From: Fusibacter sp. 3D3
GTDB taxonomy: Bacteria > Bacillota > Clostridia > Peptostreptococcales > Acidaminobacteraceae
Assembly (NCBI RefSeq): GCF_001748365.1
Contig: NZ_BDHH01000016.1
Coordinates: 2,685-66,684 of the forward strand
Direction of reading: 5' to 3'
Length of the DNA stretch: 64,000 nt
Shown here: piece by piece, positions 693-58,263 of the stretch
Layout: each line of letters opens with the position of its first letter
Position numbering within the stretch: the first letter of the stretch is position 1
Program-made: the position numbers and the translations under genes
The notes under the pieces: generated by a model
What the model saw: only the letters and a program-made list of their open reading frames with translations
Told to the model about the DNA's origin: nothing
Databases searched by the model: none

Positions 693-1715
693 TTACAGGA
701 GGTAGTTGAGCGCTAAATATATGAAATAAGCTACAAGGAGTAAGCCGCCTTCGAATCTAGAAATTTTGCGATCTTTATTGAGCGTCATGAATCTGAAAAG
801 GGACAAAATAATAATCAGTGCAGGGAATTGAAGCGTAAAGAAATCATGAGGTACAACTAAGCCTGTAGTGGTAAACGAAGCAGATGCACCTACTACGAAA
901 AGAACGTTTAGTATATCTGCTCCAATGATGTTCCCAACGGCAAGGTCTCCATGTCCTTTTCTAACCGCTTTAATAGCAGTGGTGAGTTCAGGAAGACTTG
1001 TTCCAAAGGCAACCAATGTTGCAGCAATAATGCTCTGAGGAATGCCAATGCGCGTTGCTATAACTTCCACAGAAGGAATAAGGACTTTAGAAGATAAGAT
1101 AATAAGTGCGATACCAAAAATCATCAGTAAAAATTGCAAGGCAGGATTTTGTGCCTCCGCTGAGTCGTTTTCAAGAAGATCAACAGAAAATTCAGAATCC
1201 GTAGTACCTGAAACACTTTTTTTAGAGTGTTTGAGAGACCAAACGAGATACACTATGAGCAAAGCCACTAGCAAGAATCCCATCCATTGATGAATAACCC
1301 CACCCGAGATAAAAGGTAAGCTTATAAATACAAGGAGTAACCCTGATAAAATTTGAATCCAACTTTGGACCTTAATCGCTTTATAGTCGATGATGATAGG
1401 TTGTATCATAGCGGCAATACCTATGATCAAGCCGGTATCTACGATGATAGAGCCTACAGCATTGCCAAGCGCCAAATCCGGATTGCCTTTCAGTGCTGCC
1501 ATGACGGATACGGAAGCCTCTGGGAGCGTGGTACCAAGGGAAACAATAGTGGCACCAATAATGGCTTTTGGGATGCCAAGTTTTTTCGATATGCCAACGG
1601 ATTCATCTACTAAAATGTCTGCGCCCTTTCCGAGTGTAAATAAGCTCACAGCTGCAATGACAAAAATAAGAGGCGTTGCGAGATTAAGCAATAATGTTGA
1701 AATCCAATGTTCCAT
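693..1715 (-). CDS. CaCA family calcium/sodium (cation) antiporter, YrbG-like
   Basis: A membrane antiporter of about 340 residues with the inverted duplication typical of Na+/Ca2+ exchangers. The first half has LGTTLPEASVS followed by GNAVGS; the second has FGTSLPELTTA followed by GNIIGA. These alpha-repeat motifs hold the ion-coordinating acidic residues, and about ten hydrophobic segments surround them. An upstream in-frame GTG at 1724 is possible, but AAAGG lies 8 bases before the ATG at 1715, so I chose the ATG. The leader carries a Mn2+ riboswitch (1887-2012), which argues that the physiological substrate is or includes Mn2+ rather than only Ca2+. Family membership is certain; ion specificity is inferred from the riboswitch. 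Confidence 0.92.
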   Translation of the reverse strand: MEHWISTLLLNLATPLIFVIAAVSLFTLGKGADILVDESVGISKKLGIPKAIIGATIVSLGTTLPEASVSVMAALKGNPDLALGNAVGSIIVDTGLIIGIAAMIQPIIIDYKAIKVQSWIQILSGLLLVFISLPFISGGVIHQWMGFLLVALLIVYLVWSLKHSKKSVSGTTDSEFSVDLLENDSAEAQNPALQFLLMIFGIALIILSSKVLIPSVEVIATRIGIPQSIIAATLVAFGTSLPELTTAIKAVRKGHGDLAVGNIIGADILNVLFVVGASASFTTTGLVVPHDFFTLQFPALIIILSLFRFMTLNKDRKISRFEGGLLLVAYFIYLALNYLL

Positions 1716-1886
1716 ATAATCCACCTTTCAATATAAAATAAAATGAGGGCATATTAACATCCGAACAAGATTTGAATCATACTATAATGCCTCAAATCTT
1801 GTTGTCTCGAATCCGTTCCCATCTGAATACTTCTCAATAGCTGAATATTCTTGTGAGAAGCTGGACGCGAACTCATAATATGGAAT

Positions 1887-2012
1887 AAAAAAGACTCTAC
1901 AATTATTGTTCATAATTGTAGAGTCTCACACGACTGTTACATCATTTAAGCCGGGATGATTAATCCGTTCTGACGACTTAAATTCCACGAATGGCAGTTA
2001 CTCCCTCTATCT
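1887..2012 (-). promoter_or_regulatory. yybP-ykoY Mn2+ riboswitch with terminator expression platform
   Basis: On the minus strand the aptamer shows all hallmarks. The P1 arm TAGAG precedes loop-1 GGGAGTAAC; the P3 stem TTTAAG/CTTAAA encloses the loop-3 motif TCGTCA and CCGG; the 3' P1 arm is CTCTA (1919-1923). The next element is a perfect 14-bp hairpin (1893-1906 with 1912-1925) followed by six T residues (1887-1892 read in reverse). The terminator's 5' arm contains the 3' P1 strand, so ligand-stabilised P1 would block the terminator: an ON switch for Mn2+. The family is known to control Mn exporters. The transcript start predicted from the promoter at 2019-2046 falls right at the aptamer. 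Confidence 0.9.
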
Positions 2013-54856: not shown

Positions 54857-55000
54857 TTCTAAAAGGGAGTAGCTATGGGAAACCAAGATAAGATCAACAT
54901 ACTGGAGTAATCCTGGTCTTATCTGCTTTAAGGATATTTAAAGAAGCGAGACTTTTAGATTATTGGGCGAGGTGTCTGATAATCTAAAGGTCTTTTTTTA
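54857..55000 (+). promoter_or_regulatory. yybP-ykoY Mn2+ riboswitch (variant loop 3) with terminator
   Basis: P1 is a perfect CTAAAAG/CTTTTAG pair (54859-54865/54952-54958). Loop 1 is GGGAGTAGC, matching the consensus exactly. The P3 arms ATAAGA/TCTTAT enclose TCAACATACTGG ... CCTGG, a departure from the usual TCGTCA/CCGG. The 3' junction AGCGAGAC is followed by a 15-bp hairpin (54949-54963/54979-54993) and TTTTTTT. Its 5' arm reuses the P1 3' strand, so Mn2+ binding would prevent termination. It lies upstream of a GDT1-type exporter gene, a known partner of this riboswitch class. Confidence 0.85.
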
Positions 55001-55073: not shown

Positions 55074-56918
55074 ATGATTCAAGAGGTATTAAAGGCATTT
55101 GTGTTGATTTCTATAGCAGAAATGGGGGATAAGACTCAGATTTTAGCAATGGCATTTGCCACACAGTTTTCTGTTAGAAAAGTACTCATTGGAATTGGAG
55201 TCGGCGCTTTCCTGAATCATGGGTTAGCAGTAATTTTAGGGCGACTTCTTTCTCAAATGGTTCCAATGAGCACTATTCAAATGATTGCAGGTGCTGCGTT
55301 TATAGGCTTTGCGATATGGACGTTAAAGTCTGATGATGAAGAAGAAGATGATGATGAACCTAAAATTCAACTTGGGCCCGTAGCAACAGTTGCTTTAGCT
55401 TTCTTTTTAGGTGAACTTGGAGACAAAACACAATTAACGGCAATCACATTAGCTGCAGATGCCCATTATCCTTTTATGATATTAGTGGGAACAGTTGCTG
55501 GGATGATTGCTACTGGAGCGATAGGCATTTTTGTTGGTAAAAAAATGGGAGATAAGATTCCTGAATTAGGTCTTAAATTATTGGCGGCTTCTATATTTTT
55601 GTTTTTTGGGATCCAAAAAATACTACAAACGAGCCCGAAACAATATTTAATACCAACGTTTATTGTACCTGTGTTCGGTTTATTGATAGGGTTTGTACTC
55701 TATAGGGTAAGAAAGTTAATTCAAAATAGGGAAAAAGGGATTCAGTCTGAATTTAAAGCAAAATCGCAATTGCTTCATGAATACTATAAGCACATTCAAG
55801 AAGATCTTGAAAATATCTGTATGGGGCCAAAGTTTTGTAATGCCTGCCAAGGGCATCAATGTGCCATTGGACATGCAAAAGATATTATTCAGAAGTCTAT
55901 AGTCAATCCAGATTGGCAAATTGAATCCAAAAAAATAGAATTATCTTATAAGGAAAAGCCATTTTTTGATGAAGAAATTTTAGATAGCTTGGTAGATACC
56001 TTATGGTTGATTGAAAGTATAAAAGATCCTAAAAAGTTAAATAATGCACATTTGATTAGAAAACAGTTAGAGACCATTCTCGTGGGTCATTCAATCAGAA
56101 ATGTAGAAGGCATACCTTCATATATTTCTGAAATTAGAAGAGAAAACAATGCGCTGGCAAGGCGAATTGAAGGTGCTTATAAAATGAGAAAACCCATAGA
56201 GGATCGAATCTTGAATATTGGAAATAGGATCCATAATATTTTTTTGATTGAAATAGAAAACGGCTATTTGCTCATTGATACGGGCTATAGTGAGCACTAC
56301 AAAAAATTTAAAGAAGCATTAAAAAATAGAAAGATATCCATAGAGGATATAACCTATATTTTTATTACACATGCACATGATGACCATGTTGGTTTTTTAA
56401 ATCAGCTTTTACAAAAGACTCAAGCAAAAGTGATTCTTCATCCTGCATCGATAGAAAGATTGAAAGTTGGACAAAATGCATTTGACGGGGGTTGTAGCAG
56501 TGTGATGGCATGGGGATTTTGTTATCTCATGAAATGTTTGGGCAAAGGGGACCATAGGTTTCAACCCGTAGATTTTCCTGAACGGTATTGGATTGTCACC
56601 CAAAAGACTCAATCCGAAATTGAGAAAGTACTCTCGGCTAAAATTATTGAACTGCCTGGACATACAAAGGATTCAATGGGTCTGCTATTTGGAGATAGAG
56701 TGCTCTTTTGTGGTGATGCAGCTATGAACGGCATACCAAGCAGCAATAACATTATCATTTGGATAGAAAACTTGAAAGACTATGAATCCTCTTGGATGAA
56801 GATGATCAGTCTTGATTTTAAACAAGTATATCCATCTCATGGGAAACCTTTCAATAAAGAACAGTTAGTCAAGAATCAACAGAAACTAAAAAAAATACGT
56901 CTAATATCCCTTCTGTAG
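55074..56918 (+). CDS. GDT1/TMEM165-type Mn2+ exporter fused to Cys-rich linker and metallo-beta-lactamase domain
   Basis: A single 614-residue ORF. Residues 1-190 are a complete UPF0016/GDT1 cation transporter: the two ExGDKT motifs occur in ISIAEMGDKTQILAMAF and FLGELGDKTQLTAITL, separated by an acidic loop (DDEEEDDDEP). After a last helix (about 197-215), a cytosolic region has the cluster CMGPKFCNACQGHQC (about 249-263). Residues about 375-600 form an MBL fold with all expected metal ligands: HAHDDH, the His of LPGHTKDS, the Asp of FCGDAAMNG and the His of YPSHGKPF. The leader is a Mn2+ riboswitch. The transporter should export Mn2+; the MBL activity is unknown. The frame is continuous, so the fusion is genuine unless an assembly error joined two genes. 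Confidence 0.92.
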   Translation: MIQEVLKAFVLISIAEMGDKTQILAMAFATQFSVRKVLIGIGVGAFLNHGLAVILGRLLSQMVPMSTIQMIAGAAFIGFAIWTLKSDDEEEDDDEPKIQLGPVATVALAFFLGELGDKTQLTAITLAADAHYPFMILVGTVAGMIATGAIGIFVGKKMGDKIPELGLKLLAASIFLFFGIQKILQTSPKQYLIPTFIVPVFGLLIGFVLYRVRKLIQNREKGIQSEFKAKSQLLHEYYKHIQEDLENICMGPKFCNACQGHQCAIGHAKDIIQKSIVNPDWQIESKKIELSYKEKPFFDEEILDSLVDTLWLIESIKDPKKLNNAHLIRKQLETILVGHSIRNVEGIPSYISEIRRENNALARRIEGAYKMRKPIEDRILNIGNRIHNIFLIEIENGYLLIDTGYSEHYKKFKEALKNRKISIEDITYIFITHAHDDHVGFLNQLLQKTQAKVILHPASIERLKVGQNAFDGGCSSVMAWGFCYLMKCLGKGDHRFQPVDFPERYWIVTQKTQSEIEKVLSAKIIELPGHTKDSMGLLFGDRVLFCGDAAMNGIPSSNNIIIWIENLKDYESSWMKMISLDFKQVYPSHGKPFNKEQLVKNQQKLKKIRLISLL

Positions 56919-56949: not shown

Positions 56950-57540
56950 CTATAATAAATGGGGTAAGAACAATTTGGCTAATCCTAAAAAGAGAAAAAA
57001 GCCCCCCACATCCTTAGCTGTGGTTAGAAAAATTGAAGAAGATACAGCTGGATCCAATTTAAGTTTTTTCAAGAGCATTGGAATTAAGAAACCAAAAAAA
57101 CCTGCAATAACAAGGTTTCCAATCATCGCAACAAAGATTATCAAACTGAGAAAAAAATTGTTATATTTAATATATATTACAAAACCGGTGATAAGTCCAG
57201 TCGCAGACCCATTTACAAAGCCAATGTTGATTTCATTAAAGACATACTTCCAATCTTTTTGGATATTGACATGTCCAAGCGCGATGCTCCTAATGACAAT
57301 GGATAAAGTCTGAGTACCTGCATTTCCCCCATACCTGCTACGATGGGCATAACTGCTGCCAATGCAACCTTCTGTGAATTGAAACTGCAAGCGGACTACC
57401 AACTTCTTCGTCTTTGCTAACACCAGATAGCATCAGGAGGTCTTCAGTCTGTTCTTCAACGATAACGTCAATGATATCATCAACCGTTATAATACCTAAG
57501 TAAACAAATAGTACATTTTCATTCATGTGTTTTATATTTT
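56950..57540 (-). pseudogene. MgtE-type Mg2+ transporter remnant (C-terminal part)
   Basis: On the minus strand YLGIITVDDIIDVIVEEQTE, DLLMLSGVSKDEEVGSPLAV represents the end of the CBS region. After a frame break near 57330-57420, GGNAGTQTLSIVIRSIALGH, VNGSATGLITGFVIYIKYNN and DPAVSSSIFLTTAKDVGGFF give the transmembrane part to the stop. The N-terminal domain and the helices around the break are missing. It converges with the GDT1 fusion gene and joins directly to another pseudogene. Confidence 0.88.
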
Positions 57541-58263
57541 TTGAATGTGGCAATTACATATGTCATTCTAAAGTATGCCTTTACATTGATAAGCCCTTTT
57601 GTTTTTGCATTCATTATTGGCTATTTGCTGAAGAAGCCAGCAAAAGTGATTGCCTTAACGTTTAAAGTGCCAAGTAAGCTTGTGTCTTTTTTACTTGTTT
57701 TAGTCTTTTACAGTAAAGTGGGTGTTCTTGGTGGGCGTTAAACTCATAACAACAGCTTCTACGGTGATCTCTGCATTGCCAACAATCTATGAAAATAAAT
57801 TAGAGCCCTATCTTATTTCAGCATTTGATGGCATTGAAAAAGCTATAGTTCGATTGGATCCTGCGCTTGTGGAAGTTTTAAATGAAGGTTTTAACCAGTT
57901 TATAAGTTCACTTGGAGAAAATATTACCAATATAGCCTTGACGGTCGTGGGGTCTTTGTCAGAAATAGCGTCGTCACTGCCATCATTTTTAATTAAAATG
58001 ATGTTAATGATTATATCGACATTTTTTTTTGCTATGGACTTTGACCTTTTATCAACCTTTATGTTAAGACAGTTTTCCCAACGTGGAAATAAGATTATTC
58101 AAACCGTTAAGCTGTATATGATGAATACCATATTTGGTAGTAATGCGCTCATATGCTCTGATCATGTGCATCACATTTGTGGAGCTATCTATAGGTCTTT
58201 TTATTATAGGGGTAAAAAATGCGATACTTATGAATGATACAGGCGTTATTAAATTATTAAAAT
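57541..58263 (+). pseudogene. Broken paralogue of the AI-2E transporter
   Basis: The sequence closely follows the intact gene at 41928-43007. It starts inside the first helix (AITYVILKYAFTLISPFVFA), loses about 10 bases near 57730 (frameshift), continues VGVKLITTASTVISALPTIY, shifts again near 58135, then jumps from the middle of the protein to the last codons NDTGVIKLLK and a stop. Roughly the fifth to last helices are deleted. A duplicate that has decayed. Confidence 0.9.

Follow-up and report, generated by a model that had tools for sequence, protein, structure and literature searches.

The gene described here, from Fusibacter sp. 3D3, joins a two-repeat GDT1 transporter, a seventh hydrophobic helix, a four-cysteine (Cys4) domain and a metallo-beta-lactamase (MBL) fold domain in one open reading frame behind a Mn2+ riboswitch. 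It lies in a stretch of 64,000 nucleotides, below called the window (Table 1). The GDT1 transporter, the RF00080 riboswitch and the MBL domain are each of a known kind, the Cys4 domain is covered by no model in Pfam or NCBIfam, and the combination is rare but recurrent. No literature on a GDT1-MBL fusion was found in open-access text, in agreement with the initial annotation, which knew of no described function for such an architecture, and term searches of the GDT1 family reviews PMC7380456 and PMC4067407 returned no description of such C-terminal parts. We favour the view, which we hold to be rather probable, that the gene encodes a Mn2+-induced one-piece membrane exporter with a cytosolic metal/redox Cys4 module and a tethered active hydrolase.

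Table 1. Positions of the features at the fusion locus, numbered along the window
Feature	Position	Strand	Residues	Basis or remark
Switch helix, 5' strand TCTAAAAG	54858..54865	+		complementary to 54952-54959
Mn2+ riboswitch aptamer (yybP-ykoY, RF00080)	54865..54945	+		29.9 bits, E 2.1e-6
Intrinsic terminator hairpin and T-run	54948..55000	+		long hairpin in fold; sequence
GDT1-TM7-Cys4-MBL fusion gene	55074..56918	+	614 aa	ATG start, no stops; full-length relatives
GDT1 repeat 1	55092..55313	+	7-80	PF01169
Motif EMGDKT, repeat 1	55119-55136	+	16-21 (E16)	sequence
Acidic loop between GDT1 repeats	55329..55361	+	86-96	sequence
GDT1 repeat 2	55374..55640	+	approx. 101-189	second PF01169 stretch
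Motif ELGDKT, repeat 2	55413-55430	+	114-119 (E114)	sequence
Seventh hydrophobic helix, then Lys/Arg-rich stretch	55641..55721	+	190-216	hydropathy, model
Cys4 domain (Cys motif and several helices)	55725..56189	+	218-372	motif, stand-alone homologues
MBL-fold hydrolase domain	56190..56915	+	373-614	PF00753, model, Foldseek, dN/dS
HAHDDH metal motif	56370..56387	+	H433, H435, D437, H438	invariant or nearly so, 83-85 family members
Further MBL ligand	56661-56663	+	H530	conserved, 83-85 family members
Further MBL ligand	56715-56717	+	D548	conserved, 83-85 family members
Further MBL ligand	56838-56840	+	H589	conserved, 83-85 family members

Architecture of the fusion protein

A Pfam search of the whole frame places two GDT1 matches (E 4.7e-38) and a Lactamase_B match (E 4.5e-24) on a single chain, which bears out the initial annotation of a one-piece GDT1 protein with a complete MBL. 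Both PF01169 matches lie above the cut-off and each repeat holds one E-x-G-D-(K/R)-(T/S) motif, so that the two ExGDKT sites described before are indeed present. Hydropathy and a low-confidence model predict six helices within residues 2-186, which together with the acidic stretch between the repeats is in line with GDT1 topology; the GDT1 part of the AlphaFold model is of low confidence, with only three sequences covering it. The same two antiparallel ExGDK(T/S) repeats and the same acidic central loop are found throughout the GDT1 family (UPF0016/TMEM165, PF01169), including the bacterial MneA-type Mn2+ exporters, and control by the Mn2+ riboswitch is known for bacterial members. The fusion protein differs by its extra seventh helix, the Cys4 domain and the MBL. 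GDT1 proteins transport Mn2+ (PMC7380456), and their acidic central loop lies on the cytosolic side (PMC7380456, PMC4067407). With the central loop in the cytosol a six-helix protein would end outside, and the seventh helix, which forms the highest hydropathy peak (2.3) and is modelled within a continuous helix 194-248, would return the C-terminal part to the cytosol.

Behind this helix lies the Cys cluster, with the spacing C249-x5-C255-x2-C258-x4-C263; the first gap thus comprises five residues and not six, as had been read initially (CxxxxxxCxxCxxxxC). The assumption that GDT1 proteins normally consist only of the transporter also has to be revised, since proteins of about 340-390 residues made of GDT1 and Cys4 without an MBL are common in these Bacillota, and proteins of this make-up with 340-400 residues account for most other GDT1 matches in the family. 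Among the long GDT1 proteins, 57 of 58 carry the Cys motif, nearly all of them without an MBL, and the first gap is x5 in 44 and x2 in 13 of the 57. The cluster must then have been present before the fusion took place, so that an origin in the service of the MBL is excluded, and the idea of a linker made for the MBL was rejected.

A profile search (E down to 1e-17) also recovers the Cys4 domain as stand-alone proteins of ~145 residues. These match the C-x5-C-x2-C-x4-C domain along almost its entire length but are free, with extra Cys residues and no membrane part. In 15 of the 17 stand-alone Cys4 loci (L198-L207, L209, L221-L223, L227) a rubrerythrin gene (PF02915, 142 residues) follows directly in the same orientation, and with only 142 residues an added rubredoxin domain is hardly possible in its product. 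Rubrerythrins usually come with a Cys4 rubredoxin domain for electron entry, and by analogy it is plausible that the free Cys4 protein has a metal or redox function. By extension, the Cys4 domain of the exporter may sense metal or redox state, which is a lead and not a proof.

The MBL domain holds all seven metal ligands of the HxHxDH...H...D...H pattern, as the initial annotation had noted, and residues beyond the ligands are conserved in the MBL family as well. AlphaFold models a complete fold with pLDDT mostly 92-98, and Foldseek matches it to B3-like MBLs (E 2e-10) and also to ST1585 and PqsE. Subclass B3 metallo-beta-lactamases, ST1585, PqsE and LACTB2 have the same fold and are the best structural or profile matches, whereas the fusion MBL is only 18-20% identical to these structures. 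Identity as a true beta-lactamase of subclass B3 was rejected, as the curated family score reached 52 bits where the cut-off is 240. To our knowledge the bridging Asp is absent from true beta-lactamases, and its presence as D548 leaves no reason for the beta-lactamase name. A flavodiiron protein or ODP was likewise rejected, because the iron-binding HxExD is replaced by HAHDDH and a flavodoxin domain was not found; the ODP Pfam match is confined to residues 388-457 (29.0 vs 27.2 bits). In close pairs the MBL has dN/dS values of 0.112 and 0.133, compared with 0.06-0.23 in the GDT1 part and 0.16-0.35 across the Cys4 region. These ratios indicate purifying selection on the MBL, the ligands of which are all kept in the fusions examined.

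Stand-alone PF00753 MBLs of about 240 residues occur in Clostridia, Bacteroidota and Spirochaetota. The nearest are 44-56% identical to the fused MBL and have the same ligands and the family-specific GQNSFxGGC insert, but no exporter fusion and no Mn2+ switch were seen with them. Their neighbouring genes were considered as a substrate clue and none was common, the contexts being unrelated. Three stand-alone relatives (L052, L053, L055), from a genus that includes Clostridioides difficile CD160, lie near M20 peptidase and transporter genes which by eye resemble an aminobenzoyl-glutamate uptake cluster, a possible clue to a substrate of the MBL family. The plan of a GDT1 transporter with a C-terminal enzyme is also found in a GDT1-aminotransferase class IV fusion, in which the enzyme is unrelated and the Cys4 domain is absent; L158:1581-3044 (genome G163) encodes two GDT1 repeats and the aminotransferase in 487 residues, and L159 (genome G197) contains an equally long frame.

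Distribution and origin of the fusion

Whole-protein searches over samples of the family, order, class and phylum, roughly a thousand genomes, recovered the fusion in five genomes, namely that of the window, Fusibacter ferrireducens Q10-2, what is in all likelihood Thermoclostridium caenicola DSM 19027, a congener of the latter (G1065) and G151, a complete genome of a different family. The full-length fusion is open in the independent assemblies of F. ferrireducens (57% identity to the window protein), T. caenicola (61%) and G1065 (61%), and the open fusion is spread across two orders. An assembly or sequencing error that joined two genes is ruled out by these independent assemblies, which carry the same open frame at 57-61% identity; nothing was found in its favour, and we give it next to no probability. 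Both events that had been named beforehand as grounds against the fusion, confinement to this assembly and a stop or frameshift near residues 190-370, are contradicted by these relatives.

In G151, residues 1-149 and 146-613 of the fusion are set 2.75 kb apart, and between them lies an IS21-type pair, IstA-like (524 aa) and IstB-like (247 aa), on the reverse strand (L050:5896-8201). The fusion gene is therefore interrupted there, within the transporter part, and, judged by the encoded proteins, by an istA/istB pair rather than by a group II intron, which was rejected. Whole-protein search of the G151 genome gave no further GDT1 match. The genome of the window has a second GDT1-Cys4 copy without an MBL (L002); a search for a Mn2+ riboswitch at this copy gave none. 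Viral contigs searched for GDT1 relatives yielded two weak ones only.

Four fused MBLs entered an 85-row tree, in which they form one clade (support 100/99) nested in the stand-alone MBLs; their closest relatives there are two stand-alone proteins. The tree of GDT1-Cys4 proteins places the fused GDT1 parts in a 13-row clade (96/95) that also holds nine unfused ones; T. caenicola sits among unfused proteins here, and a single fused clade is not rejected (AU p 0.145). Several unfused sisters stop at the (M)RKP residues with which the MBL begins in the fusions. The window protein is 74% identical to that of G151 and 57% to that of its own congener F. ferrireducens, and this closer likeness to a member of another family suggests transfer. 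Both trees are accounted for by a single fusion followed by loss, recombination or horizontal transfer; a stand-alone MBL gene thus probably became attached to a GDT1-Cys4 exporter on one occasion and was then passed on, lost or transferred. No significant MBL remnants were found behind unfused GDT1-Cys4 genes, and no MBL gene lies within about 1.5 kb of an unfused GDT1.

Conserved neighbour genes of the fusion that would hint at a substrate were not found. Directly behind the fusion, the window holds a broken MgtE-type divalent cation transporter gene (56950-57553, reverse strand), of which the C-terminal half matches PF01769, and then an AI-2E-family transporter gene (57541-58237, forward strand) that seems to be broken up into two overlapping frames, of which the second piece alone matches PF01594, weakly; the latter gene is probably a frameshifted pseudogene. 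In F. ferrireducens a multicopper oxidase gene is next behind the fusion (L058:9846-11351, forward strand). Some multicopper oxidases oxidise Mn2+.

Riboswitch and terminator upstream of the gene

The Mn2+ riboswitch that the initial annotation had placed in front of the gene is confirmed and recurs in all five fusion loci. The element stays below the curated gathering cut-off of RF00080 (45 bits), so that a default Rfam scan misses it and a sensitive scan finds it; related loci with listed scores reach 28.7-33.1 bits. Its conserved core, GGGAGUAGC and CAACAUAC, and the paired stems are present before the fusion gene. An RF00080 element also precedes the fusion in F. ferrireducens and G151, and the core is found in T. 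caenicola and G1065; this recurrence in the other four loci argues that the element is real. Unfused GDT1-Cys4 genes are preceded by RF00080 too.

The 5' arm of the terminator holds CTTTTAGA (54952-54959), the alternative partner of the 5' strand of the switch helix. The complement is exact over 8 nt in the window, G151, T. caenicola and G1065, and in F. ferrireducens TCTATAAG stands opposite CTTATGGA, so that the pairing is maintained with changed bases. Switch helix and terminator are mutually exclusive, as would be the case in an antitermination-type Mn2+ ON switch, and from this base pairing an ON response to Mn2+ is predicted. A second RF00080 element lies 53 kb from the fusion (1905-2005, reverse strand; 31.0 bits, E 8e-7), upstream of a Na+/Ca2+ exchanger-type gene (693-1724, reverse strand; PF01699), which is a candidate for another Mn2+-controlled cation exporter.

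Possible coupling of exporter and hydrolase

High cytosolic Mn2+ would, in the reading we favour, stabilise the riboswitch, and its closing helix would capture the terminator's 5' arm and thereby permit read-through. Export of Mn2+, and possibly of Ca2+ as well, would be carried out by the GDT1 part in exchange for protons. The Cys4 domain, an old part of this GDT1 subfamily, would bind metal in the form of Zn, Fe or an Fe-S cluster and would most likely tune or sense the metal/redox state of the exporter, which it may read or buffer. The MBL, derived from a stand-alone gene, would be a working two-metal hydrolase at the inner face of the exporter. An enzyme that is useful in Mn2+ excess would in this way be made together with the exporter and held there. 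The tie between export and hydrolysis is the weakest link of this proposal and may be one of shared expression alone.

The latter thought leads to a different view of the MBL, as a passenger that gains Mn2+-controlled expression and a membrane location and has no influence on export. We regard this as possible, although on balance unlikely. The rare and patchy distribution would fit, as would the several nearest unfused sisters that end with the RKP of the junction and lack an MBL, from which it follows that the link is dispensable, and the stand-alone MBLs occur without a Mn context; purifying selection on the MBL, the retention of all ligands in the fusions examined and the persistence of an open fusion across two orders speak against an idle passenger. 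Two products might also be made from the gene, if M371 (ATG AGA AAA CC) served as an internal start for a free MBL of about 244 residues, the size of the stand-alone relatives. All five fusions have a start codon at the junction (ATG in four, TTG in F. ferrireducens), and in the window GAAGGTG lies 8 nt before the M371 codon, but most other fusions show no clear ribosome-binding site and the MRKP residues are present in unfused sisters without an MBL, which makes an internal start quite improbable.

Slightly less probable still is a role of the MBL mainly as a metal sensor, in which Mn2+ in the two-metal site would gate the exporter and hydrolysis would be secondary. The physical tie at the cytosolic side, the complete two-metal site and the Mn2+ control of the gene are compatible with such gating; yet the MBL family is found mostly alone and far from exporters, its conservation extends beyond the ligand residues, and most GDT1-Cys4 exporters work without an MBL. 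Also speculative, and improbable in our estimate, is a broader model in which the Cys4 domain is a hitherto undescribed iron/redox module that, when free, partners short rubrerythrins and, on GDT1, acts as a redox valve, by which peroxide or the iron state would change Mn2+ export, with the fused MBL adding a stress enzyme to the same complex. If this were true, protective Mn2+ would be retained under oxidative stress.

GDT1/TMEM165 proteins matter from bacteria to human glycosylation disease, and their regulation is poorly known. The present analysis points to a widespread bacterial GDT1 subfamily with an unmodelled Cys4 domain, predicted to be cytosolic, which a conserved gene pair ties to rubrerythrin. 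It also brings to light a natural fusion of an exporter and a hydrolase, the expression of which is probably set by Mn2+. Thus, two questions become testable, what the ligand of the Cys4 domain is and whether a GDT1 exporter and an enzyme are coupled.
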